Shown here: in pieces, positions 749 through 53,070 of the stretch
Position numbering within the stretch: the stretch's first letter is position 1
Layout of the letters: each line of letters opens with the position of its first letter
Assembly: GCA_021234155.1 (NCBI GenBank)
Contig: JAJEKV010000030.1
Location: 1,498,901 to 1,562,900 of the forward strand
Direction of reading: 5' to 3'
DNA: 64,000 nt
Source of the DNA: Isoetes taiwanensis
Taxonomy: Eukaryota; Streptophyta; Lycopodiopsida; Isoetales; Isoetaceae
Notes under the pieces: model-generated
What the model was told of the DNA's origin: nothing
The model's input: the letters and a program-made list of their open reading frames with translations, nothing else
The model's database searches: none
Position numbers and translations under genes: made by a program

Positions 749-1127
749 GTGGTCTTGGAACGAAGAACTATATAGTTTCATTTTCGAGAATATTCCACCT
801 AGTTTCACCCAGGACCGCATGGACCTCGTGCAAGCTAACATGCGAGCTCACCCGGCCCGGTACCATACCGAGATTGCAAGGCGAATACAAGTGCGCCAGG
901 ATAAAGAGGCCTGGGATGCTGAGAGAGAGAGTCTCCGTAAAGCAGAGGAGGATGCCCAAAACCAGCAGGGCGTGGATCAAACTGTTGTCCAGCAAGAAGA
1001 TCAACATGTGGCACACGAGGAGGTAGCACAGAATGATGTTCCGGAGAAGGAGCAGCGCTGGGGTAACCGAAAAAGGAAGCTGACGAAGCCAACGAGGGGC
1101 GGCGTCAACTACAAGACCCGGCTGTAG
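639..1127 (+). CDS. ORF1 of the LTR element, charged coiled-coil-like protein
   Basis: A 162-codon ORF with no family I recognise. It starts with ATG inside the 5' LTR; an internal ATG at 819 (residue 61) is an alternative start outside the LTR. The N-terminus is Arg-rich (MARVRRRALL). Residues 60-100 are rich in Arg/Glu/Lys and look helical, residues 100-140 are Gln/Glu-rich, and the C-terminus is basic (RKRKLTKPTRGG). It ends at a single TAG (1125-1127). The same frame stays open after it and reads into the H3-like domain, so ORF1 and H3 may form one protein by stop readthrough. The bases just before the codon after TAG (ctgtag) also resemble a 3' splice site. The 3' LTR copy of the start differs by a short insertion (ATCTTTCCATAG-like) before ATG. 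Confidence 0.5.
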   Translation: MARVRRRALLMARWLPWEGKVPVCIRPCVLYVLGASQWSWNEELYSFIFENIPPSFTQDRMDLVQANMRAHPARYHTEIARRIQVRQDKEAWDAERESLRKAEEDAQNQQGVDQTVVQQEDQHVAHEEVAQNDVPEKEQRWGNRKRKLTKPTRGGVNYKTRL

Positions 1128-1550
1128 AAGGACGCCCAAATCGGAAAGAACACGCCGGCTCAGCGTCGGAAGCAGATCGTGCAACGGGCGAAACATCCCT
1201 CGACCGGCGGGAAGTCCGTGCCCTTGCTCAGGGCAACTGTCAAGCCAAGGAAGCCCCATCAGTTCCGACCGGGCACAGTAGCTCTTCGCGAGATACGTAA
1301 GTATCAGAAGACTATTGAGCCATTGATACGCCAGCTACCTTTTCAGCGGCTTGTCCGTGAAATCGCCCAAGAATTCAAAACCGACCTGAGGTTTCAGGCC
1401 TTTGCCATACTCGCACTCCAGGAAGCTGCCGAGGCCTACCTCATAGAGATCTTGAGCGATGCCAACCTCTGCGCCATCCATGCAAAGAGGGTTACCATAA
1501 TGCCCAAGGATATCCAGCTCGCAAGGAGGATCCGAGGGGAGTTTCGGTGA
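1128..1550 (+). CDS. Histone H3-like domain inside the LTR element
   Basis: The reading frame after the TAG encodes a clear histone H3. Core motifs include [46 protein letters not shown] and [19 protein letters not shown], ending RRIRGEFR. The loop 1 and alpha-2 regions are of canonical length, so it is not a CENH3. Tail homology begins before the GTG at 1179: the K4-Q5 pair is visible in RRKQ and the K9-STGGK14 block in AKHPSTGGK, with a two-residue HP insertion. About 12 residues corresponding to K23-K27-S28 through G34 are missing. There is no ATG in this frame after the TAG, so translation would need fusion with ORF1, splicing or a non-AUG start. Substitutions cluster around the K56 region and alpha-2 ([26 protein letters not shown]). 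H3 identity is very sure; function is inference. Confidence 0.85.
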
Positions 1551-1813: not shown

Positions 1814-3107
1814 ATGGCTCACCCAACGCTACAGCAGTGGTACCTGGATGGCGAACACTGGGACCCCCCGGTTCCCTTTGATCTTCTTCATCCTCATCTG
1901 CTCCAGCAAGTGGACCTCGTCCAGAACATCAGGCGCACCCCGACTACGCTGCTTTCCTTCAGTTCTACTGTGAGGAGATCGTGCCTGCATGTGTCTTCAA
2001 TGAAGACGACTCACAGCTCTACCTCGACTTCCACACCTTGCTCGAGATGTTAGGAGGCGATTAACATGCCCGGAATGTCATTAAGGGCATAAGGAGGAGA
2101 GGGACCGACCTCCTTATCGTTACCATAGATCGGGAAGTCTGTTTTGAGGCTCGATTCGCGCTGGCCATCATCATGGACCAGTACATTAAGGATGAGCCGA
2201 TAGCGGCCGAGCAGTCTTCTACACCAGTACCCCCTGACCCAGAAGACGATGAAGTCGTCGACGAGCAGGACTTTGTAAGGTGGAAGGAACTAGCCACCGA
2301 AGCACCGGCCGGTCGAGATAAAAGCCCTCGAGCTCGAAGGGCTAAACCTCCTCCCTACTCTACGACCTTGCCGAGTACTGCCAGGATGACTTCCTCGACT
2401 TTACAACACCCATTGTGCATCCGCCACAAGTCGAGAACTTGTTAGTATATCGGCCAGAAGAGCTAGAGCCCGTTGAGACCCTCTTGTCTCTTCGGCAGTT
2501 CCTATTGACTGATGCACCCCAGCCTCCTGAGGAGCAGCTTGCGGCTCACCTGCGCCCTCCTCCTGCAGTTCAGCCTTTACAGATCACTATGGGAGGGGAG
2601 GATCAAGAGGAGGAAGACCTTTGGGACACCAAGATAAGCCTTAGGGATGACAAAGAAGAAGCAGAGCAGGAGAAGATCCCTGTTAATTTGGAAAAGAAAG
2701 CAGAGACCTCCAGGGATCCCCAAATTCGGGCAATGGGCAACCATTTGACCCGATTCTTCCTTTCAGCCTTCTGGCAAGGTGAGGTCTTGTTCTTCTCCAA
2801 GAACTTGGGGCCATCTTCTGAAGCTTCTTGGTGGGCGCTCCGTGCGTTATCCACCTTGGCGGGCCATAAGAAGATTGATTATCATGCCACCACTATCACT
2901 CTGGTCCGACGGGATCTGGCTATAGTGGCATTGGGGGACGTGGCAGGCTGCGCTAGTATGTGACTCCTTGTGGCGGCACCCTTGGCCACTTGCTTGCCAC
3001 CGGAGGCAACAGCTCGAGCCGCCCTCTCTGCTAGCCCCAGCACCACCTTGATGCGCTACCGACCACCTCCTCAGCCTATGGACGAAGAGGAGGAACCTAG
3101 TTCTTAG
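1814..3107 (+). pseudogene. ORF2 of the LTR element, frameshifted acidic protein of unknown family
   Basis: Reading starts at ATG 1814 (MAHPTLQQWYLDG) and stays plausible only if the frame changes near 1920. It reaches a TAA near 2060, remains open through 2445 (DPEDDEVVDEQDFVRW), and changes again near 2350 into the frame ending at 2963 (VENLLVYRPEELEPVETLL, then FFLSAFWQGEVLFF). An in-frame TGA is followed by a Pro-rich, acidic end near 3107. At least two frameshifts and two stops make it a pseudogene or a spliced/recoded gene. Pro- and Glu-rich linkers separate helical blocks. The block at about 2745-2945 ends LAGHKKIDYHATTI...RRDLAIVAL, which weakly recalls the end of a histone fold, but this is not enough to name it. 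Confidence 0.4.
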
Positions 3108-3325
3108 ATATCTTTTTATCATTATAAATCTTTATATTCCGTATGGATGTAATCTTTGATTGGCATTTTTCTTAAGCCATCATATAATATATGTGCTATT
3201 TTCTTATGCTTTATAATTATTGTATCGTTGGCTCCGATTAAATTGTGTCCCTATGATACTTGTTTGTCTCTTTTAGAGTATAAGAAATTGTTCAATACTG
3301 TATATTCATTCTTGCCGTCTTACAG
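3108..3325 (+). other. AT-rich intron-like spacer
   Basis: An AT-rich stretch of 218 bp between ORF2 and ORF3. It ends in a pyrimidine-rich run followed by cttacag, a good 3' splice-site match, directly before the acidic ORF3 frame. No clear 5' splice site is assigned. I see no coding sequence in it. Confidence 0.3.
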
Positions 3326-3785
3326 ACGATGAGCTCGAAGAAATCGAGGACAGATTAATCAACGAATTACGGAGGGACGATCAGGGACCTCTCGACCAAG
3401 ACTACGGTCAACGGTATGCGGAGTATCCGGATCGGAATGATGATTGCGAAGCAGGGGGCCCATAGAAGAAGGAGAGCCCTATGATTCAACTAAGGGCTTG
3501 GAGATTGTCAATATCCTCCGGGAGCGTGCTTTCGAGCATCTACAACAAACTCTTCATCGTACCTGGGATTACTGGGATATGACGAAGCACGAGGCTTACG
3601 CCGACGCAAATGATCACTTATGGCAGATCTTTTATGCGTTAAGGGACCTCTTCAATCTCCTTATCATTAGTCCCACGTTAGACTACCAGTACGTTATCAT
3701 CCAGGCATGGGCTCGCTACAAGGTAGTCAGGGCAATACAGGAGAGCGTCCGTTACTCTATCATATACCCTTTCGCGCAGCCCTAG
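3326..3785 (+). pseudogene. ORF3 of the LTR element, helical protein with one frameshift
   Basis: From the splice-site-like cttacag the frame reads an acidic segment (DDELEEIEDRLINELRRDD) to a TAG near 3462. The overlapping frame from 3444 continues to 3785 (GLEIVNILRERAFEHLQQTL ... YALRDLFNLL). One frameshift near 3450 would join them. The second half is strongly helical and rich in aromatic residues (WDYWDMTKHEAY). I do not recognise the family. AT-rich sequence follows (3786-4019), including an AATAAA-like site near 3904. Confidence 0.35.
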
Positions 3786-4019: not shown

Positions 4020-4538
4020 ATGGTCAATATAGATGGTGCACGTAACGCCTCATGGCAGACACCTTCGAATGCTAGCAGATTAACACCTGAGCAGGAACTC
4101 ATGTTGATGAAGCGACAGTCAGTAGAGCTGCAGGCTTATGTGTTAAATGCCAACCCACCACAGCATATGCAGGAGGACGGACCGGAGTTACCTCCGTTAC
4201 CCCCAAGTCCACCACCACTGCAGCCACTTGCACCGGAACCAGGCCCTGTACCCGCACCAAGGAGGCACCGTTCCAAACGTCGTCGAAGCTCGTCGACGGA
4301 TAGTGCCACATCCTCACGGTCAGCCACTTCTGTGTCTTCAGAGTCATCCATATCGTCTGGTGACCATGCAAAGGCCCGGGACAAGGAGTACCGTAAGACG
4401 GTTGATACGGCCATTACCAGTATATGGAAAAACAGGAAATTGGCTCAGTTTGATGGAAAATCCAGAGGCGGCCTGAACGCAGAGTCTTGGTTGGACGAGA
4501 TGAAGGAGTTTGGGAAATCCTATGGGATGATGGAGTAG
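4020..4538 (+). CDS. Gag-like protein, truncated
   Basis: A 172-codon ORF from ATG. It begins with a low-complexity region, then has a Pro-rich stretch (residues 50-80, PPLPPSPPPLQP), an Arg/Ser-rich stretch (80-115) and a C-terminal block (residues 125-172). That block has TAITSIWKNRKLAQFDGKS and AESWLDEMKEF, resembling the start of Ty3/gypsy gag domains (a short FDG motif, then a W-containing helix). It stops at TAG just where a normal capsid domain would continue, so the capsid and all of pol are missing. The gag assignment rests on this short match and its position. Confidence 0.45.
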   Translation: MVNIDGARNASWQTPSNASRLTPEQELMLMKRQSVELQAYVLNANPPQHMQEDGPELPPLPPSPPPLQPLAPEPGPVPAPRRHRSKRRRSSSTDSATSSRSATSVSSESSISSGDHAKARDKEYRKTVDTAITSIWKNRKLAQFDGKSRGGLNAESWLDEMKEFGKSYGMME

Positions 4539-4823: not shown

Positions 4824-4836
4824 AAGGAGGGGAGAA
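4824..4836 (+). promoter_or_regulatory. Polypurine tract
   Basis: AAGGAGGGGAGAA lies directly before the TGTGACG start of the 3' LTR. This is the normal place and composition of the plus-strand primer of LTR retrotransposons. Confidence 0.85.
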
Positions 4837-6227
4837 TGTGACGTTCCAAGTATTTATACGGTATACGTATAAATATACTGACACGTTACGCAGTAAGGAT
4901 ACGCCACCATGGGGTACTTTAACCTAGGGGGTTGACCTAAAAGGGATTAATTTAGCTATGCTAAATTAATTATTAAAAGATAATTAAGGAAATAATACCT
5001 AAATTGGTTTAATTAGGATAATGGATTAATTAGGAAGGCACCATTTGGCCAAACTTGATTGGCCAGCATGGGGATGCTAACTTGGGGCATCAACATTGAA
5101 CCCTTGTCCCATTTGGCCCCAGAATCGAACCAGGAGGAGCAGCCTGAGTGCCCAAGTGTTGCTGAACACCCAAGTTGCTGAAGTTGTTGCTGAACACCCA
5201 AGTTACTGAAAGATGGAAGTGCCCCATGATAACGGATCTAGCAGAAACTCGGGTTAGTGGGTAGTCTAGTTTGAGCTTCTAGGATAGCTCCTCAGTTAGT
5301 CTTCTCTGGTTATCTCTGTTAAGATTAACCCTTCTTTGATACTTAGGATTATATTTCAATTATGGATTATGCTTTGTTATGGATGGATAGATGAATCTAT
5401 GAAAGTATCTCTGTTAGATTCCGTAAAGCGGGGATTAAGGGGAGGGGGGGAGGGGAGGTAGAGACCTCTGAGCCCATGTATTGTAGTATGCTCCTAGATA
5501 GAGCCTTGTATTATTTCCATTAGATGCGGCCTGTGCACAAGAGACCACCGAGTCGTGGATGTTATGGAATTACTTAGCACCAGAGAAGGGACGCAGTGGT
5601 GAAGTGGGGGTGGGGTCTTGCATGAACATAAAAGGCTCCTGAGACTCCTACAGTGGGCTAGGCCTGATAGCCGGTCACGTAGAGGGCCGGGTATGGGTCT
5701 GACACTCCCTGGGTGTAGAGGTGTGACCCGTATGGGGCATCTTGCACTTTGAAGATAAAGTTAGGGGAGTAGGTCGGGTACGGATGCGGGGGTCACTGAT
5801 GCGGCACGTATTCTCTAGCTCACCCATGGAACCGCTGTGATCCTGGAAGGGGACACTTCCCTGATCTGCCTCATCAGACCAGGTCTTCATGAAACCTGGA
5901 GCAGGCTCGAAGGGTGATACCTTGAGTCTGCATCTCCGGAAGGCTATAGTGATGCCATAACATGATTCGACTCATCTGCAAAGTGTGCACAGGAGGGGCG
6001 GATGGAATGGACAACCCTAGCTTGACCTTGTATTCACGCTTCTGCGACATAGGAGCCCCATCGAAGGCGTGGGCCGAATGACCCCTCTGTGTCCTTCACC
6101 CGAGCATCTTTCCATAGATGGCCCGAGTTAGACGGAGGGCCCTGCTCATGGCGAGATGGTTGCCATGGGAAGGGAAAGTCCCCGTATGTATACGCCCGTC
6201 TGTCGTATATGTTCTGAGAGCGTCACA
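4837..6227 (+). repeat. 3' LTR (1391 bp)
   Basis: Starts TGTGACGTTCC and ends CGTCACA. It matches the 5' LTR in three blocks. It contains a purine-rich run near 5440-5460 and carries the 5263-5890 segment missing from the 5' LTR. Its first bases match the minus-strand LTR ending at 19323, and its middle part (gcctgtgcacaagag ... gggctaggcctgatagc) is recognisable in reverse near 18400-18700. The LTRs are therefore one family with several copies in this window. Confidence 0.9.
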
Positions 6228-6916
6228 GATCACTGCTTAATGCAGTGAGATCTATGCTCAAACATGTTGGCCTGCCAAATTTCTCAATGGGAGGAAGCTC
6301 TCAAATCTGCAGCAAACATGCAGAATAAACTACCCACAAGGAGTACAAATGGAGAAGCACCGGATAAATTATGGTATGGGACTGATCCTTCTTTAAAGAC
6401 TATAGAGTGTATGTATGTGCAGCATATGCTCATATACCAGAAGAAGTTAGGAAGAAATTAGAAGATAGGGCCTGCTTGTGCTATCTCATAGGTTATGATG
6501 AACATTCAAAAGGTTACCAATTACATGAGCCTACAAAGAAGAGAATTATATTAAGTAGAGATGTAACTTTTGATGAGAGTACTCTAGATAAGCATAGAGA
6601 AAAGGAAAAACAGAAGGAAATTGAAAAAACAAACAAAGAAACTAAACTTGCAGATTTGGATAATGATCATGCAAGGTCATTAATTTTTGATAGTGAAGAC
6701 ATTAATGGAGACAATTTTGAATATATGACAGACATTCAGCAGGCTGAAAATGAAAGGAATGGGATGGATGAGAAAATTCAGTCTACTATGAATCATGAGA
6801 GCAATATGCTGAAAAATAGGAAAAGGAAAACAGAAGCAGAAAAACTCAAGGATGACTTGAAAATTGATACAAACAAATATGGGCACAGTGATGAAGGAAC
6901 AGCAAAGCTATGCTAA
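6228..6916 (+). pseudogene. Ty1/copia integrase C-terminal part, broken
   Basis: Two overlapping frames (6264-6461 and 6407-6916) read as copia integrase. The first has EALKSAANMQNKLPTRSTNG and APDKLWYG. The second has AAYAHIPEEVRKKLEDRACL, CYLIGYDEHSKGYQLHEP and RIILSRDVTFDES, the usual end of copia integrase, then a Lys/Glu-rich linker to RT. A one-base shift near 6410 breaks the frame. The LTR element above is inserted at 6228, so the 5' part of this copia copy must lie left of the window if it survives. Confidence 0.85.
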
Positions 6917-20990: not shown

Positions 20991-22690
20991 TGCGGGGTTC
21001 AGGCACACCCACATATTTTCCGTCTGTGTAATTGCTCCATGGCAGTTGTTTACGTATAAGGTTAGGAATGTTTCAGGCCTAAACATGAGTTTTATAAGTA
21101 CAGATAGCCGTTGTGTTCCGTGCATGGATAACTTAGTTGTATTCCACCAAATAAAGTGCTTCTATAACCTTTTATAACATCATTCCAAGCTTCTAAGGCA
21201 GAAGCAGGAATCCCAATTGGGATGGCAAGTAGCCTTGTGGTCCTGCCATATGGAAGCACCTTCCAGATGTCCAAGACATAAGAATGGATAGGATTGTCTA
21301 GTGCCCACAAAATGGTGCACCTTTGTTAGCCCACAAGCATCCCTAATGCTAAGGAAACTATATCCAATGATAGTTTAACATTGTGAATATTCGCAGCCTC
21401 ACTCATATGGACTTGAGAACCATTAGTCATTGGATAACTTTAAATGATGCCATCTTGGAGAAAAGTTGGGATATCTTAGCCACAATTATGATGTCTATAA
21501 AGGGGTTTACAGCTATTTCTAACAAGATTTCACTACCAATAACTTGGAGCTATTGCCATGAGAGAGATTCTGTAAGTGTTGTCAGCTACAAATTAAAACT
21601 AGTTACTGAATATTTTGAAGCTGCATTTATTATTGAACCTGCTTGAGATTAAAGTTGCAAAAAACTTTACCCTTCAAAGTAGATACGTACAATACCTTAA
21701 AGTTTCTTCAATCCAACTTTGTTAAGCTGCAAGTCAGACACTCCTATGCACCTCATGATGAAGACGAACATCAGCTTAACAGGCAAAATGTAGATTGGCA
21801 GTGAAGTTTGGCCATCCTTCTCTTACCATAACCAAAAATTTAAAGATTCATAGAATGAGGCGAGTACATCCACATGAATCATATCAAACCTCGGCGTACA
21901 CTAACACTATGCAATGTTCACAATTCAAAAGCATGCTCACCCATCGCTCGCATCACCATCCATTGACTTAATTTTGCTCTGCAATAATAAAGAACAAGGA
22001 TAAAATGACCTTCCGAAGGCAGATCTAGGGTCATACTCCCACCATGCAAATCAATAAAGCTGTATATACTGGACATTCATAGCCGCGTTAACCGATACAA
22101 AATTGAAGGCATATGAGAGATGTATATAGGATGATAGCCGTAAGATGAGAAAACCTGCTATGGACATTGGATAAAAAGAAGGAAATGGAACAAGGAACAG
22201 AGATCTTGACCTCCATAAGAATATTGACTTGCAACAGCAGGTTTAGGTTTAGGTCGGTTAGTGGGAGCATCGGGGCATATACCCAGTATATTCCCACATA
22301 TCAACACGAGCATAGGTCGGTTAGTGGGAACATCCGGGGTTGACTACCGACAACCCAAACTGCTAAATATAATAATAGGCCAAAATGCCATGGTTCATGT
22401 CCATGGACAAAATTCATGTCCATGGAAAGAAAATAGAAAGGCTATGTTGCGAAATTCCGCGGAAGTGCTGTAAGCCCGGAGATTTAGCTGTTTACTGTAG
22501 AAAGGCAAGGAGATTTTTCTGCTAGCTTGTTGGATCGTATTTATTTTTAAAGGCATTTGGGTTTCGCTTCGGTTTCTGATCGCCTTTTTTTTTGTTTCTG
22601 ATCGCCTTTTCATAAATCGTTACCTTAATAGCTAATTGCCTTTATAGCAAATGGGAGATTGGGAAAAAAGGTTAAGGAAGCCTTTTTTTT
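20991..22690. other. No gene seen upstream of the E4 gene
   Basis: AT-rich. A short direct repeat, ggtcggttagtgggancatc, occurs at about 22253 and 22316. Inverted pieces (gtccatggacaaaattcatgtccatgg, split across two palindromes) lie near 22399-22426. No ORF is convincing. Confidence 0.35.
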
Positions 22691-22693
22691 CCC

Positions 22694-22700
22694 TTATATA
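22694..22700 (+). promoter_or_regulatory. TATA-like box of the E4 gene
   Basis: TTATATA lies 39-45 bp before the ATG at 22739. If it is the real TATA box, transcription would start close to the ATG and skip the out-of-frame ATG at 22711. With a longer leader, that ATG would open a 23-codon overlapping upstream ORF. Confidence 0.35.
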
Positions 22701-22738
22701 CACACCTCAGATGCCGATTCTACACATCGGTGAAGAAG

Positions 22739-25651
22739 ATGCAGATGACAATAGAGGAGACGGTGGACTTGGTATCACGTAGAATTTTTCAAGTGACACT
22801 TATGCCTCCATCTTTATATGAGCAGAATTTAGTCTATCTAGAAGTCCTAGCATATGAGTTGAATGCAGAAGGTCGCCCTCTTCTTATCACTACAGATTTG
22901 CTAGGTAGATTGTTGATAGAAAGGTTTAAATTTTGTTCCAAGTTTGATAAACCTTTGGAGTATCTAGTTGCATGTTATAAACGTGCAGTAGAAGAGCACT
23001 ACAGGTGTGCATTGGAGTCACAAAATGTGAAGAAAATGAGGATTGAAATATTGGAGCTCTTTAGCGAGGCTAAGAAATTGGCATTGATATGTGCAGAACA
23101 GATTTTTCGCGATCCTGGATTGTTTTCCCAGTATGAACATCCATCTCTACTGCATGTAGTTCTAAACACAGCAGATCCAGGTTTTCAAGACGCAGTTATT
23201 CCTCCAGAATTTCTGGATCACATGTTCAATCATCTTGATAGGAGAACGTTAGACACATTCTTTCAAGATTTTAGGGCGCTTGTGTGCATTATTCCCTTCT
23301 TTCACCAATTCCAAAAGCCACTTAATGCTTTGGGAATGTTGGTTTCATCATGTCCATTGGCTGCAAAGATTCTTGTACATCACTCAACATGGCATCCAAA
23401 GGGAAACCATGTCAATGGAAGGGACTTAGAAAATTTAACATTTTTAGGTGCATTTTTTCGCATCAATGTCATTCCAAATTCAGATGCTTCAACTTATGGT
23501 CAGGATATGCCATCTAAGAGTACTATACAGGCCACCATGCAGCAGTTATACGATGGTTTGCATAAAGTCTTGCTAGCTTTGCTGGATAGTCCAGAGACTC
23601 AAGAGCATGTTTTGGAATTACTAGCTGACATTGTTGAGAAGAATGCATCTCGGGCGCGCACAAGGGTAGATTTTTCAATAAATGCAAGCACAGGAATGTT
23701 TGTTACTTTGAGTGTTGTCATGCTCAAGTTATGCAAAACGTTTTCGAGGCGACCAGGTTTCAAAATGGTTATAGGTGACCTCAATTATGTGTTAAGGAAT
23801 GGACGTGTTAATTTTACTAACTTAACTGCCATTCATGCAACCTCTGAGGAGCAAGCTGAATGGGTTGACAAGCAGTGCGCTCAAATGTATAGCAAAGAAG
23901 GGTTCGCGCAAGATCAGCTACGGTATGAGCAAGATAAAATCTATGGACTCCAATCAAAAGATTCATCACCTCTTCATTTTTCAGAATATGATGCCTTATT
24001 TGGTTCCTATGAAGCTTTACCTACATCTTCTGCTTATTCACTTGATTGTGAATGTTTTTTTCTTGCTGCACGGGTGCTTCATTTAGGCCTTCTTCAAGCA
24101 TTGTATGAGCTCAAGGAACTTGAACGAAAAATTGTACGCTCGAAGGCTTCTTTAAATAAGCTTAAAGCATTAAGGGAGTTTGGACAATTCCATGAATTGA
24201 ATGAAGCAATTTTGAAATCAGAGGCCACTATAGAGAAAATGATGCTAGATAAGTATTGCTATGAAGCGCAGCTAAAGGATACAGGTATATTGAGGCTAGG
24301 AATGACCTATTATGAGTTGATGTTTGAGTGGTTTGTGTCTCCCTTTGGTGGATTCCGAGACACCCTTCCAGCAAGTTGCCCAATGCAGTTCGCTTCTATT
24401 CCAGAACATTTTGTTGAAGATGCAATGGATTTTCTTACATTTACTGCAAGTGTTCCGAATGCCATGCATGGAATCATGCCCAATAATTCCATGAGTTTTA
24501 TTGTGATGTTTATTTGGAGTCCTCACTATGTGAAAAATCCGTACCTAAGGGCAAAAATGGTTAAAGTTCTTAATGCTTGGATGCTATTAGAAATCAATAA
24601 TCCAAGATTAGCAAGTCCAATGTTTGGAGAACATCATCTAGCAAGGCGCCTTCTTGTTCCCAATCTTCTAAGGTTGTATGTCGACATCGAATGTGCAGGA
24701 AATGGAAATGACAAATATGTCATTAAGATTAAACATGAAATTTGTGAGTTACTAAAGTATTTGTGGACAATGCCTAGCCATCAAGAGACATGGAAGAGCT
24801 TTGCGCTTAGGGAGAAAAATAGATTTTATTTGAAATTTTTGAATCTGCTCATCAATGACATTACTTTTTTGTTGGATACAAGCTTCCAACATATACGAAT
24901 GTTAAAAGAAGTGGAAGTCCTTCAAATAGAGGGAACGATGCAGATAGTTAAGCAAGCTAAGCAAGTTAAACAGGTTGCAAGGACTTACATGACATCGGCT
25001 AATCAATGTGTTAAGATGCTATGCTATACCACATTGGAAATAACTTCTTCCTTGCTCGTGCCAGAAATGGTAGGAAAGGTTGCTTCTATGCTCAATTATT
25101 TTCTGTTGCAACTTGTTTGCAAGAGTGAAGAATTGAACATAAAACAACCAAATGAATGCGGATTCAACCCACAACTATTACTGGTTCAGGTTGCACAAAT
25201 CTATGTAAACATTGCAAGTGGGGATAGACATGGAATTTTTGCAAAGGCCATTTGTACTGACAATATGTCGTATAGGGATGAATTGATTTCAAAGGCAATT
25301 GTGTTGCTAAGGAGCAAAGGACATGAAAACTCATCCATAAACAAGTTTGAAGATCTTGGAAGAAAGGTTGCCATCGCTGCAGATAAAGCTCTTGTTGAAG
25401 AGGCCATGTTAGGAGAAATACCAGATGAGTTCCTTGATCCAATACAATGCACTTTGATGATAGATCCTGTTATCTTGCCATCTTCGAAGGCAACTATTGA
25501 CAGAACAACCATCCAAAGGCACCTTTTAAGTGACCAAACAGATCCATTCAATCGTTCTCTTCTTACTCCAGATATGCTTATTCCTAATGTACAATTGAAA
25601 GCTATGATTGACGAGTTTCTTCAAAGTAGCACGAAAAAGAGGAAGAGGTAA
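22739..25651 (+). CDS. UFD2-type E4 ubiquitin ligase with C-terminal U-box, single exon
   Basis: An intact 970-residue ORF. I chose ATG 22739 because the preceding codons from 22730 begin with GTG. The protein matches plant UFD2/E4 (Arabidopsis PUB1 type, about 1040 aa) along its length: NASRARTRV near residue 300, a PEHFVEDAMDFL motif near 555, NPYLRAKMVKVLNAWM near 600, and a U-box at about 890-965 (DEFLDPI, DPVILPSS, DRTTIQRHLLS, DPFNRSLLTPDMLIPN). The end, KKRKR, may be a nuclear signal. E4 enzymes extend ubiquitin chains on substrates together with E1, E2 and Cdc48/p97. Plant UFD2 genes normally contain introns, so a single exon here suggests a retrogene. I see no poly(A) tail or target repeats, and the intact frame argues for selection. 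It is shorter than PUB1, mostly in the variable region before the core. Confidence 0.93.
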   Translation: MQMTIEETVDLVSRRIFQVTLMPPSLYEQNLVYLEVLAYELNAEGRPLLITTDLLGRLLIERFKFCSKFDKPLEYLVACYKRAVEEHYRCALESQNVKKMRIEILELFSEAKKLALICAEQIFRDPGLFSQYEHPSLLHVVLNTADPGFQDAVIPPEFLDHMFNHLDRRTLDTFFQDFRALVCIIPFFHQFQKPLNALGMLVSSCPLAAKILVHHSTWHPKGNHVNGRDLENLTFLGAFFRINVIPNSDASTYGQDMPSKSTIQATMQQLYDGLHKVLLALLDSPETQEHVLELLADIVEKNASRARTRVDFSINASTGMFVTLSVVMLKLCKTFSRRPGFKMVIGDLNYVLRNGRVNFTNLTAIHATSEEQAEWVDKQCAQMYSKEGFAQDQLRYEQDKIYGLQSKDSSPLHFSEYDALFGSYEALPTSSAYSLDCECFFLAARVLHLGLLQALYELKELERKIVRSKASLNKLKALREFGQFHELNEAILKSEATIEKMMLDKYCYEAQLKDTGILRLGMTYYELMFEWFVSPFGGFRDTLPASCPMQFASIPEHFVEDAMDFLTFTASVPNAMHGIMPNNSMSFIVMFIWSPHYVKNPYLRAKMVKVLNAWMLLEINNPRLASPMFGEHHLARRLLVPNLLRLYVDIECAGNGNDKYVIKIKHEICELLKYLWTMPSHQETWKSFALREKNRFYLKFLNLLINDITFLLDTSFQHIRMLKEVEVLQIEGTMQIVKQAKQVKQVARTYMTSANQCVKMLCYTTLEITSSLLVPEMVGKVASMLNYFLLQLVCKSEELNIKQPNECGFNPQLLLVQVAQIYVNIASGDRHGIFAKAICTDNMSYRDELISKAIVLLRSKGHENSSINKFEDLGRKVAIAADKALVEEAMLGEIPDEFLDPIQCTLMIDPVILPSSKATIDRTTIQRHLLSDQTDPFNRSLLTPDMLIPNVQLKAMIDEFLQSSTKKRKR

Positions 25652-31127: not shown

Positions 31128-32640
31128 TGTGATGCTCCCTGAACCTATGCGGTGCTCCCATCATATAAACATGAGAAATTCCCCTCCCATGGCAACTCAA
31201 TCACCAGGAAAAGGCCCTGAGTTGTACTTGGACCACTTGTAATGGCCAAATTCCGGGTGAAGGGCACGGAGGTGTCATTCGTCCCATGCCTTCTATGGGA
31301 TATCCTATATGGCGAAAGCATACGCACATGTAGCACTAGTGACAATACACATAAATAATATGCCACCACGAAGGTAGCATATCCATCATCCATACGAACA
31401 ACAACATATAACACAACATATAAAATGCATCATAAATGAGGGTTCTACCCTGGGCTCAGACTCAAGGGGTCGACTGACATTCAGGGTCTCCGGATAACAA
31501 CAGACGGAATCATGACAATGGCATTGGCTGGCATAGAGACACTTTGCAGATAGACTAACACATGCTATGGCGTGATTGTAGCCTTTCGGAGACATAATCT
31601 CATGGAATCACCCTCTGAGACTACTCCAGTTTGCATCTCCCCGGTCCAATGAGGCAGGAAAGAGACGAATCCCCTCCCAGAGCACAATGATTCTATGGGT
31701 GGCTAGAGGATCATGGCACCACTGGCGCCCATGCATCCGTACCCGACTTACCCCCCAAAATCCATAGGTCAGCTTACCACACCTATCGAGCCCAGAACGT
31801 CCCACTGGGCAGTGCCTGCGACATAGGGAGTGTTAGACCCATACCCGACCCACACGTGGTGACCGACTATAAGCCTAGCACACTATAGGAGCCACAGTAG
31901 CCACGCTCAACAAGGCTCTACCTCCACTTCACCATTATGTCCGTTGTATGGTGCTCAATCTTGGCATAGCAACCACAGCCAGGTGGGTTCTTGTGCAAAG
32001 GCCGGGTTTATTAAGATTTATGGGTTTCTAGATAGAAGCATCTCTATTCCTACTAGCGGTCTCTACCACCCTTATCCCACAAGCACAAGAGGTGCAACAA
32101 AAGAACTACCGTAGATCCACTCATAACTTCAAATAGAGCATCAATAAGAGATTAATCACCCATCTAAACAAACAGGGGTTAATCTCTATATAGAATCTCA
32201 AGCTAACTAAGCCTACTAACCTATATCTTAGCTAGATCCCCATATCTCTTAGGTTCTCCATGCTCTGCTGGTTGAATAGGCTCCTTCTCCAATTGGCCCC
32301 AAATCAAATTGGGGCAAATTAGGGATGAAGCTCCAATTTGGCTGAAGGCAGTTCTTCCTTGCCCAACCGATTTGGACTAGGTGGCAATTTCCTAAACTAA
32401 ACTATTGAAAATTAAATTTTAATTGAATTATGGGTTAACATATGCCTCCTTAAAATTAGAGTTTTGCCCTAATTTCGAATTAGGGTTTGGGGCTAATGCA
32501 AATGGCAAGTTTAACTTGTCCAACCAGTTGGTGCCATGTAATGCCTAGGTCCCCATAATTAATTAACATAGCTAATGCTAATTATTATGCCTAAAATCAA
32601 TTTAATGTACTACTCCATTAAGTCAACACAAAAATGGTGC
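31128..32640 (-). repeat. Diverged LTR of the TGTGACG family, minus strand (left start degraded)
   Basis: The right-hand sequence, read on the minus strand, resembles the first 250 bp of the LTR at 4837: a GGTTGACTTAATG segment, ATTAATTATG-rich part, then GGACAAGTTAAACTTG. The minus-strand end near 31128 is GGAGCATCACA. 31800-31960 resembles 18470-18600 (gtgcacaagag region and gggctaggct). The starting TGTGACG is not recognisable. The adjacent sequence below 31128 does not give a convincing PBS. Confidence 0.6.
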
Positions 32641-39363: not shown

Positions 39364-40826
39364 CTAGAGCTTGCGAAGGAAAGTAACATCTAGGTACAGC
39401 TTAAGTGCATTGTGATCCTTCTTTGTCCTTACATGTACGCATCTGTTTGCCTGTACACCCCAACGTGAGAACCACCGAGCTTGCTTGTCCTTCCAGCAGG
39501 CTTTGAGGCGTTGGGGACCCATCGCTACGACCAAAGCAAGGCTGGGCAAACGTGTATCACCCATAGTGACTACCTTCTGGAAGTAAATAATATGGCGTTC
39601 CAATGCAGCCCATTGAAGGGGTAAAAAACCTGTCTCTTGGAGTAGAATCTGGTATGGAACTGTGGACTTTACCCCAAAGGCTCGTGCCAAGAAGACTTTC
39701 TGCACCTGCTCGAGGTCATTCCAGGTGTTGAGGGATATGATCGGACCCCACACTTGTGCCCCATACAAGAGGACCGGCTCGACTAAGGCCCTAAACAAGT
39801 GTGACTGGTGGCCCCGGGCATACAACTCTGCCTTGTGGCCGTTGTTTTGCATGGCATATAGTGCTTTCCAACCCGCTGTGACCCGCAACCTGATGGCAGC
39901 ATCCCATGGGTGGTAGTAGAGAACTCGATCCCCAAGTACTTGTAGGTCGGAGCCACCTCTACATCTTGTCCCTGGCAAAAGAATGAGGGAAGCCTTGGCT
40001 GACGGGATGACGAAACTAGCAGCACCCTAGTTTTGGCCAAGTTAACTCGCATGCCAGTGAATTGGCAAAAAGTGTCAAGAGCATCCATGTGATATTGTAT
40101 GTCCTCTGGAGTATAGGCCAGGAGGTTGACATCGTCAGCATATATGAGTTGCTGGATTGTGTAATGCATGAGATGACCTCCGTGCTCAGAAAGCCAATCT
40201 TTCAGCTAAAGAGTGTAGGCTAAAGAGTGTAGGGAAGAGGGGGCAACCCTGACGTACTCCAATACTAATGATTACCGGCATGATGTGATACGGCCTGAGC
40301 ATGCCTCGTATAGCCTGCATATTACGTTCTGCAAGTCAGGGGAGGTCCCCAGCTGCCATAATCTGTTCCATAACTTGTCCCGGGGCATTGTGTCAAAAGT
40401 TTTTGCGAAATCCACGAAACAACAGTACAGGTTTTGTCGGCGCCTGCTATCCTCAATCAGTGTGCGCAGAGTGAAGATACGATCAATGGTGGAATGCCTG
40501 GGTTGAAAGCCTGCTTGTGTGAGAGCTCGCACATCTGCCTTCTCTGCCCATATTGTCAGCCGCTGCTCAAGGATGCCAGCCAACAATTTTGCAAAGAGAG
40601 AGCTAACCATAATAGTACGATAGTTGGCTGGGCATTGAGGGTCCCCTGCCTTGTATATGGGCACAACTCTACTAGTGGTCCACTGTGGAGGGAAGCCTTC
40701 TTGCAATGCTTTATTGAACAATGCCATGAGGACAGGCACCAGTAGAGGCCCAGCCCATTTCAGAAGTTTCGCCTGCATGCCATCTAAATCTGCTGCCTTC
40801 TTATTAGCTAGGCGTTGCAGGCCCAT
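39364..40826 (-). pseudogene. LINE reverse transcriptase
   Basis: 40826-40272: KKAADLDGMQAKLLKWAGPL, RVVPIYKAGD, NYRTIMVSSLFAKLLAG and CCFVDFAKTFDTMPRDKLW (motif A, with Asp in VDF). 40169-39783: QQLIYADDVNLLAYTPED (motif C, YADD) and NLAKTRVLLVS. 39978-39364 gives the thumb (WKALYAMQNNGHKAELYARG, VLLYGAQVWGP). Frames break near 40270 and 39960. The region between motifs A and C is shortened. Confidence 0.9.
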
Positions 40827-41524
40827 GATGACATCCCGGCCCCTCTGTGATGACCAGAACCATGCCCATCTGTGGAGGCACTAGTGCCCGGCCCCTGAGT
40901 GGGTCGTAAAGCTGTTGCAAGTACTGTACCCATTGCTCCGAAGTGATGCTCCCTGTGGGCTGTACAACCTTGCTCAATACCTTTTTCTATAATATCTTGC
41001 CGATACAGGAGACCGAACATCTGTTGCTGGTGCTCTGTGAGATATCTGGCTTTCTTGTTCTTGAGGAAGGAGCAGTATTGACTGATGGCCTGTGAGCGGG
41101 ACGTGGGATCAGTGACTTGCGGGAGTTCACGTTTGAGCTCCTGACACTCATCATCGAACCATCTATTGCGGGGGAAGGTGGCAGCGCCCGAGGTTCTCCG
41201 CGAGTGGCCTCTCCCAAAGCATCTTTCGCCACCGCCGAAGCGGTGTGAGTCACCGGAACATTGTTCGCCGGGTGTGGGGAGCTGCAGTAGTCCCGCCAGA
41301 TCATGCTTAAGCATCTGGCCATAGCTCCCTTCACGGTCGTAGTCCAGGCGCAGCTGGGGCACCTGGCATGTTGAGGCAGTGGATGCACGGGGAGCCTGCC
41401 AATGTATATGCACGAACAGGGGCTGGTGGTCTGAGTCCACTTCCTCATCCCGAGTGTCTGTTCCAATGGAAAAATGGCTAACCAAGTGCAGATTATGTCC
41501 GTCGACAAACGAGTAATCCATCAC
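40808..41524 (-). pseudogene. LINE endonuclease C-terminal part and linker
   Basis: MMDYSFVDGHNLHLVSHFS, then DEEVDSDHQPLFVHI: the SDH motif completes the APE-type endonuclease. A long Arg- and Gln-rich linker follows up to the RT start near 40826 with another frame (41508-40987) overlapping. The frame break near 41220 marks a shift. Confidence 0.8.
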
Positions 41525-50270: not shown

Positions 50271-52517
50271 TCATCCGGTAGTATCGTCCCCCTGAAGACT
50301 TGGACCACACTGTTCAAAAAGGCTGCAATCCACAAATGAGTTCAAGTCAATCAAGGAGTCAAACCGAACAATGAAAAAATCAGACTTGAAGGCCCCCCAA
50401 GGCAACCAATCCGTATCATATTTTTCCAGCTTAGAGGCCTTATGGGCCATAGCACATCTAATAAGCTCAAATTGGAAATTAAGCTTCATCCAAATAAGAT
50501 CACACTTCCTATTTGCCATAGCCACATTATTCCTGTGTTTCCAGACAATCCACAAGGCTAAATGCAAGATAGAGGAGTCAACTCTGGATTTCTGAAGATT
50601 GAAGAATTGAGCCATACTAGAGATGGAGTCCATGTCAGGGATACTCAATTTAGAGCCAATCTGAGACAACCACCTCCAGAAATCTTGGATCATAGGACAA
50701 GTAAAAATGTGAAGAACTGTCTCATCCTGACTGTTACACAGGGGGCATAAGGGGCTGTGAACATTATTAAACTGTCTCTTGATCATATTTGTATTACTTA
50801 GCAGGGCATTGTGCAGGATCAGCCAGGCAAACACTTTGATTTTAGGACAGGAATAGGACTGCCAAATTGAAGAAAGAGTCTTCTTGAAGTTCTTGGAAGA
50901 TAGGCCATGGAAAGCAGCATACTTTCTTCTCTTCTGAGGAAGACAGGCATGATAAATTTTGGAGACCTTATAGCTCCTTTTTACTTTGAAGAACCAGTTC
51001 AGAGGGGAGTGGCTCTCCCCCTTACCATCCTTTCCCAGGACAGAAGAGTAGGCTTGGACAACCTGTTTATAGATCAATCTGTTGGTTACCCCTCCCCCAA
51101 CTTTTCTTTTGATAGACTCCCAAGGAATCCAATTATCATTCTCATCAATCAAATCCCTCACATATAAAATATTGGCTCTATGCCACTTCATGTAACAGGT
51201 AGGGTGGCAAATAGCCATGGCCGAGTAGGATGGGGGGGCTAGGATAGGAGACCAAAAAATTGAGGTATCCCTAACAGAATTGGTGATTTTATCATGGGTG
51301 AACTTACTAGCCACCATCTCCCAGGCCCTGAAAATGCTCCTAAGAAGGGAGGAAGTGTTAGAAGCACACTTGAAATCATAGAAGGCTGAATCTAGAAGTT
51401 GATGTCTTAAGGTGGCACTCCCTAGGGGTTTACTCTTGTTGAACCAAAATCTAATGAAGTCCATTGCAGGGGACTGAAAACCAGAAATGGCCTTCCATAC
51501 ATTCTTGGCCCCTAAGATCTGAGCCTGTAGGAAAAGAGATTTACATCCCAGACCACCAGCCTTCCTGCTATGGGTGAGCTCCTCCCAAGCAGACAAGTGA
51601 GTCCCCTGCCAAATATATTCTTTAATGCATTGTTCAATCTTGTTGTAAGAAGCTTTGTCAGCAATCAGAGCAGAGGAGAAGTAAACATGGCTGCTGGCCA
51701 AGACAGAGTTGGCAATTAGGATTCTACCAGCCAGAGAAAGTGATCCTTTAAGGATTAACAGTTTTTTCCGAATCCTGTTAATCAAGGGTTGCCAGGCCAC
51801 TTTGTGGGACATCTGAATAGCAAGGGGGAGTCCCAGGAGGATCAGGTATTGTCCCTCAGGAACAAATTTGATACCATGGGTATGGAGATGAGGGTATGAA
51901 CTGTCAGAGAGAATGGAACACTTAGCAAAGTTGAGGTGAATCCCAGAGGCAGCTCCAAACCTGGTTATACACTCCATCAAATTATCCAGGCAAGCATTAT
52001 CAGCTTTGGTCATGATGAAAGTATCATCAGCATACTGGAGGATGGACAACTGATTATCAGATTGAGGCATCTGGAGGCCATGGATCAGGCCCTTATCCTG
52101 ATATGAAGAAACCATTTTGGTGAGAATTTCAGCAGCAATAATGAAGAGGTAAGGGGCCAAAGGGCACCCTTGTCTCACTCCTCTCTGGATAGGGAAAAAA
52201 TCAGTGGGAGCTCCATTAATAATGACACATGAGGAAGCATTCTGATTTATGCCCATGATAAGGTTGATGAGGTAGGGATGAATGCCTATGTGGCTGAGGG
52301 ACTTCTCCAGAAACTTCCAGGAAATACAATCATAAGCTCTCTTAAAGTCTAATTTAAGAAGAATGCAGCCTTGCTTGGATAGCTTATTCCAGTGAAGAGC
52401 TTCATTAGCTGCTATGTAGTTGTCCAGTATAGATCTGTTGGGCAGGAAGGCAGATTGGCAAGCATTAATCTTATTTTGGAGATGCACCACCATCCTACCA
52501 GCAATGATTTTAGCCAC
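50271..52517 (-). CDS. LINE ORF2 reverse transcriptase and CCHC end, long open frame
   Basis: 748 codons. Motifs in order: LKLDFKRAYDCISWKFLEKS (A), RGVRQGCPLAPYLF (B), LSILQYADDTFIM (C), LILLGLPLAIQMSHK, then a thumb and a long connection, and CPLCNSQDETVLHIFTCP (zf-RVT), near residue 605. The first ~80 RT codons are out of frame upstream: WRPISLTTTLYKLVAKI reads in another frame near 52500-52550. So it is a nearly intact but interrupted copy. Confidence 0.92.
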   Translation of the reverse strand: MAKIIAGRMVVHLQNKINACQSAFLPNRSILDNYIAANEALHWNKLSKQGCILLKLDFKRAYDCISWKFLEKSLSHIGIHPYLINLIMGINQNASSCVIINGAPTDFFPIQRGVRQGCPLAPYLFIIAAEILTKMVSSYQDKGLIHGLQMPQSDNQLSILQYADDTFIMTKADNACLDNLMECITRFGAASGIHLNFAKCSILSDSSYPHLHTHGIKFVPEGQYLILLGLPLAIQMSHKVAWQPLINRIRKKLLILKGSLSLAGRILIANSVLASSHVYFSSALIADKASYNKIEQCIKEYIWQGTHLSAWEELTHSRKAGGLGCKSLFLQAQILGAKNVWKAISGFQSPAMDFIRFWFNKSKPLGSATLRHQLLDSAFYDFKCASNTSSLLRSIFRAWEMVASKFTHDKITNSVRDTSIFWSPILAPPSYSAMAICHPTCYMKWHRANILYVRDLIDENDNWIPWESIKRKVGGGVTNRLIYKQVVQAYSSVLGKDGKGESHSPLNWFFKVKRSYKVSKIYHACLPQKRRKYAAFHGLSSKNFKKTLSSIWQSYSCPKIKVFAWLILHNALLSNTNMIKRQFNNVHSPLCPLCNSQDETVLHIFTCPMIQDFWRWLSQIGSKLSIPDMDSISSMAQFFNLQKSRVDSSILHLALWIVWKHRNNVAMANRKCDLIWMKLNFQFELIRCAMAHKASKLEKYDTDWLPWGAFKSDFFIVRFDSLIDLNSFVDCSLFEQCGPSLQGDDTTG

Positions 52518-53070
52518 CAGTTTGTATAGGGTGGTAGTTAAAGAGATAGGGCGCCACTCATTTGTCTTGGACGGGGGAATCGAGTCTTAGGAATGAGGGA
52601 GATGACCCCAACATTATAAGTAGGATAGATGGATTTTGCTCTCCAAATCCCCGGATGAAGTGGACAATGTCATCCTTCATAATGGGCCGAATTCCACAAA
52701 GAATTCTGGCTGAAAACCATCAATACCCGGCTTTTCCCCTTTTTCATACTTTTAAGGGTTTCAAAGATTTCGTGCGCCGGTTCAGGTCTGGATCCAATCC
52801 TCCTCCATCACATCATTAGGGGGCCCTATATCATCAAAAACCTCCTCAGATTTTACTTTCCTCTATGTTTTCATCTTTGAAAAGGTCTGAATAGAATTTA
52901 TAGAATGCGAGAGGCAATCTCCTTTTCATCTTTGTGTGTAAGACCACGATCGGGTCTCCAACCGAGTAATGGAATTGTTTATAAGCCTATTCCTAGCTAC
53001 TCTAAAAACATTTGGAACTCTCATGGTCTAACCGATTGTGCAATTTGATCTTGCTTCTTAAAGCCATCCC

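Follow-up and report, generated by a model that had tools for sequence, protein, structure and literature searches.

A conserved histone H3 core at the C-terminal end of an open reading frame in a chromovirus-type LTR retrotransposon lineage of Isoetes taiwanensis

A lineage of Ty3/gypsy chromovirus-type LTR retrotransposons in the genome of Isoetes taiwanensis carries a histone H3 core as the C-terminal part of its first open reading frame, ORF1. One partly deleted copy was present in the window, the whole 64,000-nucleotide stretch of DNA that was analysed. The sequence-only reading had described an H3-like domain carried by a compact LTR element; the finding is larger, as the H3 fusion is conserved across a chromovirus lineage and occupies at least 285 places in the assembly. 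Considered jointly, a chromovirus ORF1-H3 fusion that goes back to a single capture, is held by purifying selection, may act as a chromatin tether and is represented in the window by a relic was given a slightly better than even chance.

The element copy in the window

The H3 segment of ORF1 was located at positions 1128-1550 (+), based on Pfam Histone, PDB H3 chains, core alignment and genome matches. It consisted of a diverged tail (1128-1250), the H3 core (1251-1547) and a TGA stop codon (1548-1550), all on the forward strand. Translation of 1128-1547 gave 140 residues without a stop. Residues 21-136 of this frame matched Pfam Histone with E=1.2e-43, sequence matches to PDB H3 chains reached E values down to 4.5e-50 and 81 of 99 core positions were identical to plant H3.3. 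An unmistakable H3 core had been claimed for this segment, and the open frame, the Pfam match and the core identity bear the claim out. From base composition alone, a stop-free frame of 140 codons is expected with p of about 0.004; it is the homology, and not the frame length alone, that puts the H3 assignment beyond doubt.

Judged by sequence, the protein is predicted to fold as an H3 histone and keeps the residues presumed to contact H4, H3' and DNA. The tail was diverged and aligned poorly to canonical H3. A canonical N-terminal tail with K4, K9, K27 and K36 was not found, and neither ARTKQ nor ARKS was present in the window copy. CENH3 proteins stand apart from H3 by an extended loop 1 and a low sequence identity; here loop 1 (KTDLRFQ) had no insertion and the core identity to H3.3 was high, so that neither CENH3 feature was seen. 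Among the 120 best of 8000 scored entries of the protein collection, no convincingly similar tail was detected (best tail score 56, many 40), and the ORF upstream of H3 in the window had 0 relatives in that collection. A viral origin of the H3 element was rejected, as viral contigs held 0 confirmed relatives of the H3, the ORF B piece or the gag piece. Tests on the window copy as a single sequence gave weak signals of constraint (permutation p 0.098 and 0.042) and of conservative change (p 0.053, 0.014 and 0.072).

The H3 segment lies between two LTRs, as had been noted from the sequence. The 5' LTR (1-749, +), detected by blastn against 4837-6228, ends in ..GCGTCACA, and its true start lies outside the window together with the 5' target duplication. 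The 3' LTR, TGTGACGTTCC...GCGTCACA, covers 4837-6228 (+) with TGTGACGTTCC at 4837. It is adjoined by a polypurine tract at 4824-4836 (+), identified from its sequence and found at the same position in the complete copy described below. Over 532 aligned sites the K2P distance of the LTR pair was 0.025. The two LTRs differ in their large gaps: the 5' copy has no counterpart of 5263-5890, and the 3' copy none of 344-555. Parts of both blocks were matched by a related LTR fragment at 31179-32004 (-), and therefore the ancestral LTR probably contained both.

Upstream of H3, an ORF1 remnant at 750-1124 (+, ATG at 819) comprises the end of the N-domain and a charged linker in an open frame that is in frame with H3. 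It showed a tblastn match to the N-terminal part of ORF1 in the complete copy, where window position 758 corresponds to L031 position 6091. The H3 frame is open upstream from 750, and its sole interruption is an in-frame TAG at 1125-1127 (+) that divides the remnant from the H3 segment. In a comparison of 30 loci, TAG occupied this position in 2, including the window copy, and a sense codon in the other 28, which makes a stop that arose in the window copy or its near kin a simpler explanation than readthrough. Readthrough of the TAG was also rejected as a candidate because the downstream structure was not unusual (z -0.6 to +0.5 versus mononucleotide shuffles). The first in-frame ATG after the TAG lies at about residue 125 of 140, and the ORF1 fusion is not producible from one AUG in the window copy.

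Downstream of H3 follow an ORF B remnant with frameshifts and stops (1814-3104, +; about 483 codons open in other copies), an ORF C remnant of approximate start (3330-3785, +; about 165-171 aa in other copies) and the N-terminal part of gag (4020-4535, +). The remaining gag-pol is deleted at the junction 4535/4536, which matches L032 2175/6751; a Retrotrans_gag domain (E=9.2e-16) was detected in the next stretch of L032, beyond the gag part kept in the window. A second loss is seen at about 753/758, corresponding to L031 4940/6091, where the PBS with the leader and the ORF1 N-domain are missing, and for this reason the 5' LTR abuts the ORF. By alignment to the complete copy, the window copy is thus a deletion relic of a larger element. 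The description as a compact element without visible pol holds for this copy and fails for the family, in which gag-pol is present in L032. By eye, pyrimidine-rich stretches followed by AG were noticed before ORF B and ORF C (about 1757-1812 and 3309-3325); they resemble 3' splice sites, and the downstream ORFs may be expressed from spliced mRNAs.

Other features of the window were an SH3_retrovirus match beyond the 3' LTR (6386-6913), a retroelement remnant that looked copia-like by eye, and two ORFs with RVT_1 at 40275-40880 (-) and 50274-52586 (-), the second also with zf-RVT, as in LINEs. A long single open frame at 22676-25648 (+) encodes a UFD2/E4-type ubiquitin ligase (Ufd2P_core 3.8e-121, U-box). 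Its nearest sequence among the seven relatives listed was that of the lycophyte Diphasiastrum with 46% identity.

The complete element and its family

A complete copy was found on contig C949 and read in two separate stretches, L031 and L032. Its LTRs, each about 1.6 kb long, delimit about 10 kb with the order ORF1, ORF B, ORF C, gag, protease, RT, RNase H, integrase and chromodomain. The LTRs were 94.7% identical with TG..CA terminal inverted ends, as expected of an LTR retrotransposon, and a target-site duplication GATTC (5 bp) was present at both ends. The 5' LTR is followed by the PBS TGGTATCAGAGC, which we take to be an initiator-Met-type tRNA primer site, and the PPT is AAGAAGGGGAGAA. 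Pfam domains in L032 were gag, RVP_2, RVT_1, RT_RNaseH, Integrase_H2C2 and rve in Ty3/gypsy order. A Chromo domain followed SH3_Tf2-1 (E=3.2e-8, 33.8 bits, cut-off 25.1), the chromodomain being based on this one copy by Pfam and on a tblastn match in locus L082. The gag region gave a weak CCHC zinc-knuckle match below the cut-off (E=0.024). In its LTRs, PBS, PPT, 5-bp duplication and domain order up to the chromodomain, the element resembles Ty3/gypsy chromoviruses; it is unlike them in having three additional ORFs before gag, with H3 at the end of the first. Judged by these features, it is a Ty3/gypsy chromovirus with three extra ORFs. Its gag-pol is spread over several frames, and intactness is not claimed.

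ORF1 consists of an N-domain, a variable linker and the C-terminal H3, together about 410-450 aa. In the C949 copy it comprised 470 open codons, with Pfam Histone on residues 351-466 of 470 (1.9e-41). No recognised relative of the N-domain was found by Pfam on the complete copy or by a further search. ORF B (about 483 aa) and ORF C (about 165-171 aa) gave no significant Pfam match, though both are conserved upstream of gag; their coordinates in the complete copy are L031:7139-7825 and L032:289-693 and 865-1377. In the genome search with ORF B, the best 150 of 3579 candidates were scored. A second histone in ORF B was considered on account of an H3 alpha-3-like stretch (..YHATTITLVRRDLAIV..) and rejected: phmmer against one H3, H4, H2A and H2B gave 0.3 bits, less than the best of 200 shuffles (up to 7.2). 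For the ORF B piece, Pfam gave nothing and the PDB search no histone. AlphaFold pLDDT was 51 for the ORF B piece and 60 for ORF C.

The order ORF1-H3, ORF B, ORF C and gag-pol was the same in two subfamilies, A and B. A subfamily B copy on contig C1018 had LTRs of 95.3% identity, a PBS, ORF1-H3, ORF B, ORF C and a gag-pol with RT deleted. By eye, ORF1 of subfamily B (L069-L080) often starts with MA(N/I/P)TK, faintly like ARTK of H3, and the linker in these loci contains (R/H)K(S/A)GSQYKEKL, faintly like ARKS.

A lower bound for family size was obtained in the assembly, whose 1110 contigs add up to 1,658,258,908 bases. In a search with the window H3, the best 150 of 8681 candidates (window included) were 83-100% identical; 122 of these 150 places had no internal stop, and open frames reached up to 485 codons. 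With a canonical plant H3 as query, the best 150 of 9060 candidates comprised 15 host-type places of full length with 96-98% identity and 135 places with 68-86% identity, frames of 120 to 567 codons and a stop in 11 of the 135. The 150 and 135 places did not overlap, giving at least 285 distinct places with element-type H3. DNA was read for 30 of the 150 and 12 of the 135, and all 42 carried element-type H3; 6 of the 15 host-type places were also read, and the others were counted by score only. The search for H3 with an open frame in other copies, proposed as a check of the sequence-only reading, thus turned out in its favour.

Linkage to pol was evident from the RT genes. For at least 36 of the best 123 of 34,119 RT candidates, an H3 from the lists above lay 2.5-9.5 kb upstream in the same orientation, mostly at a distance of 5-6 kb; the count is a minimum, since each H3 list comprised the best 150 matches. 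With shifts of 30 or 60 kb either way, or downstream, 0 H3 were found near RT. Stretches of 1.6 kb were read at six RT places picked regardless of H3. Three of the six contained H3, with the match split between frames; the other three were an LTR (L083), nothing recognisable (L086) and an LTR with leader followed by ORF B (L087). In L087 (G000:C1060:423200-424800), the ORF B relative stands directly after the LTR and leader, representing either a deletion or an H3-less relative, and ORF1 is accordingly not part of every copy. At 30 loci selected by ORF B, an H3 match was detected in 26, several of them partial or decayed. At the remaining four, the resemblance to the complete copy ended at or near the H3 end, and one of these (L048) had an H3 4.6 kb further upstream.

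It is extremely improbable that a host histone-variant gene or a processed pseudogene came to lie inside an LTR element by chance. Such an origin would fit the intronless frame and, behind it at about 1625, a stretch resembling AATAAA with a run of A. It is contradicted by the co-location of H3 with ORF B and pol: there are at least 285 places, 27 of 30 H3 loci had ORF B downstream at a constant spacing, and RT lay 5-6 kb away in most of the 36 linked cases. The genome also holds the 15 separate full-length canonical H3 places (among the best 150 matches). A processed-pseudogene origin was rejected, as no duplication of at least 8 nt was found between the H3 flanks.

Selection on the H3 core and origin of the capture

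dN/dS was calculated by the Nei-Gojobori method with pooled pairs. Thirty copies chosen by H3 score gave 0.052 for the core (bootstrap 0.032-0.080) and 0.168 for the tail, with a ranking by protein score that lowers dN. Seventeen copies chosen by ORF B, whose ranking favours intact copies, gave 0.072 for the core (bootstrap 0.045-0.106), 0.215 for the tail and 0.124 overall; a stop was present in 2 of the 17. These were the full ungapped sequences among 30 loci, the 13 excluded being 4 without H3 and 9 that were partial, gapped, in pieces or unalignable, and 6 of the 17 were also in the H3-chosen sample (identical cores). Nearest pairs gave 0.12 and 0.11 for the core and 0.27 and 0.35 for the tail. 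Overall, nearest-pair values (0.11-0.19) were above the pooled values for whole segment or core (0.03-0.12), which is expected if many copies decay, since nearest pairs weigh recent decay more. A Ka/Ks below 1, which had been named as support for a maintained H3, was obtained either way.

Core dN/dS was 0.075 in subfamily A (n=41), 0.032 in subfamily B (n=12; selected for an open frame and for resemblance to canonical H3, a choice that lowers dN) and 0.033 in host H3 (n=6). The subfamily A cores came from 60 loci, 50 of them with a recognisable core, after 6 identical and 3 unalignable sequences were dropped. Between groups, dS was saturated and dN was 0.115-0.152. Uninterrupted ORF1s (6 of 30 in A, 9 of 12 in B) gave 0.047/0.042 (A/B) for the H3 core, 0.155/0.088 for the N-domain and 0.197/0.258 for the linker, so that the H3 core was the most constrained part of ORF1 in both subfamilies. 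Residues R42, T45, R49, R63, R69, R72, R83, H113, K115, R116, D123 and L126, presumably H4-, H3'- and DNA-contact positions, were each kept in at least 37 of 41 A and at least 11 of 12 B cores.

LTR K2P was 0.027 in the C949 copy and 0.029 in the C1018 copy, and together with the window copy the range of 0.025-0.029 dates only the insertions, which by this measure are fairly recent. Core dS within the element samples was 0.34-0.68. The LTR divergence being far smaller, selection appears to have acted over many transposition rounds and not just since the last insertion. On these substitution patterns, the element H3 is under strong purifying selection as a part of the element. A functionless host H3 fragment carried as a passenger, its conservation an artefact of choosing the best-scoring copies, is thus very improbable. 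Two points count for a passenger: plant LTR elements commonly capture genes, according to the accessible parts of PMC3726574 and PMC13317346, and the ranking by protein score of the copies found with the H3 query lowers dN. Against it, the core remained constrained in the ORF-B-chosen sample, the domain order is common to two subfamilies with saturated dS, and H3 is more constrained than its neighbours in uninterrupted ORF1s.

In a tree rooted on host H3 by choice, the 53 element cores formed one group versus 6 host cores with a support of 0.996; subfamily B had a support of 0.991 and subfamily A of only 0.36. F87 and A107 were found in 41 of 41 A and 12 of 12 B cores and in 0 of 6 host cores. 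E77 was present in 6 of 6 host cores and was the commonest residue in both element groups; most plant H3 compared have D77. The group support, the two shared residues and E77 fit the capture of a host H3 from this lineage, which probably happened once, before the split of A and B. By these sequence comparisons, the capture is old and kept by selection, and the insertion of the window copy is recent. Of the earlier alternative that the H3 is recent or maintained, maintenance was upheld, and recency applies to the window insertion and not to the capture. The proposal of an LTR retrotransposon with a captured H3 is well supported by the open copies, the dN/dS below 1 and the complete chromovirus copy.

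Possible roles and known systems

Chromoviruses carry an integrase chromodomain that reads H3 tails. By analogy to chromodomain targeting, the H3 end of ORF1 may pair with host H4 and tether a complex of the element to chromatin; taken on its own, this mechanism is tentative and falls somewhat short of an even chance. ORF1 would be translated from the LTR transcript, and its H3 core with the kept contact residues would dimerise with host H4 and be handled by host histone chaperones. The N-domain and its cargo, which might be the gag particle, the integrase-cDNA complex or the element RNA, would thereby be attached to chromatin. ORF1 H3 would act alongside the integrase chromodomain in nuclear retention or target choice. 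The constant position of H3 at the C-terminus of a large fusion was the reason for ranking this tether above anti-silencing and packaging. It is rather doubtful that ORF1 supplies host nucleosomes on or close to the element with an H3 that lacks the usual tail and is joined to a novel effector domain. If it does, a histone and, in the chromodomain, a reader of histones would be combined in one element, which could thereby label its own targets or evade silencing.

With the usual K4, K9 and K27 motifs missing from its tail, the element H3 could also weaken silencing of the H3K9/K27 type, either by deposition on or near new insertions or by competing for modifiers. The tail has diverged while the nucleosome-forming core was held, and tail and linker evolve faster (0.17-0.35), which would suit this role. 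The fast tail evolution equally fits a plain linker, however, and H3 is fused behind about 270-310 residues in an arrangement that does not require free nucleosome entry; an anti-silencing role is accordingly unlikely. Still less likely is packaging, in which H3, with or without host H4, would condense the element cDNA or RNA in the particle, like viral histones. The position of ORF1 before the other extra ORFs and gag would suit such a role, as would the presumed DNA-contact arginines, kept in nearly all copies counted. H3 alone folds poorly without H4, and the gag region already has its weak zinc-knuckle match, both of which count against packaging.

Virus-encoded histones include the doublets of Marseilleviridae and the H4 of bracoviruses. 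The element is like them in being a mobile or viral genome with a core-histone fold; unlike these DNA viruses, it is a retroelement with an H3 fusion. It also resembles the grass elements Retrosat2, RIRE3 and RIRE8, as described in the accessible text of PMC3485330, in being a large LTR element with an extra ORF upstream of gag-pol and short inverted repeats at the LTR ends. According to the same text, ORF0 of these elements was not found outside grasses and evolves faster than gag-pol. In contrast to ORF0, ORF1 evolves most slowly at its H3 end, a comparison made within ORF1 only. Host coding sequence inside the element is shared with maize Bs1 and other gene-capturing LTR elements (accessible parts of PMC13317346 and PMC3726574). 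Bs1 carries gene fragments according to these sources, whereas a complete histone-fold core lies in an element ORF here. Unlike Bs1, the H3 fusion is common to two diverged subfamilies and under purifying selection.

Full-text searches of the open-access literature (PMC subset) brought up no earlier description of an LTR element with an H3. The word 'histone' was absent from the main text, as far as available, of the Isoetes genome papers PMC8566536 and PMC10541799 and of the gene-capture papers PMC13317346 and PMC3726574, and from the accessible text of PMC3485330 on Retrosat2.

Altogether, a chromovirus lineage encodes its own H3, whose core dN/dS in the broader samples (0.072-0.075) is roughly double the host value of 0.033 (n=6). 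A core histone can turn into a standing part of a retroelement, as this lineage shows. Searches for H3 domains in such genomes can collect hundreds of element copies and call for caution. The lineage offers a natural system for the use of chromatin by retroelements, in nuclear entry, target choice and escape from silencing.
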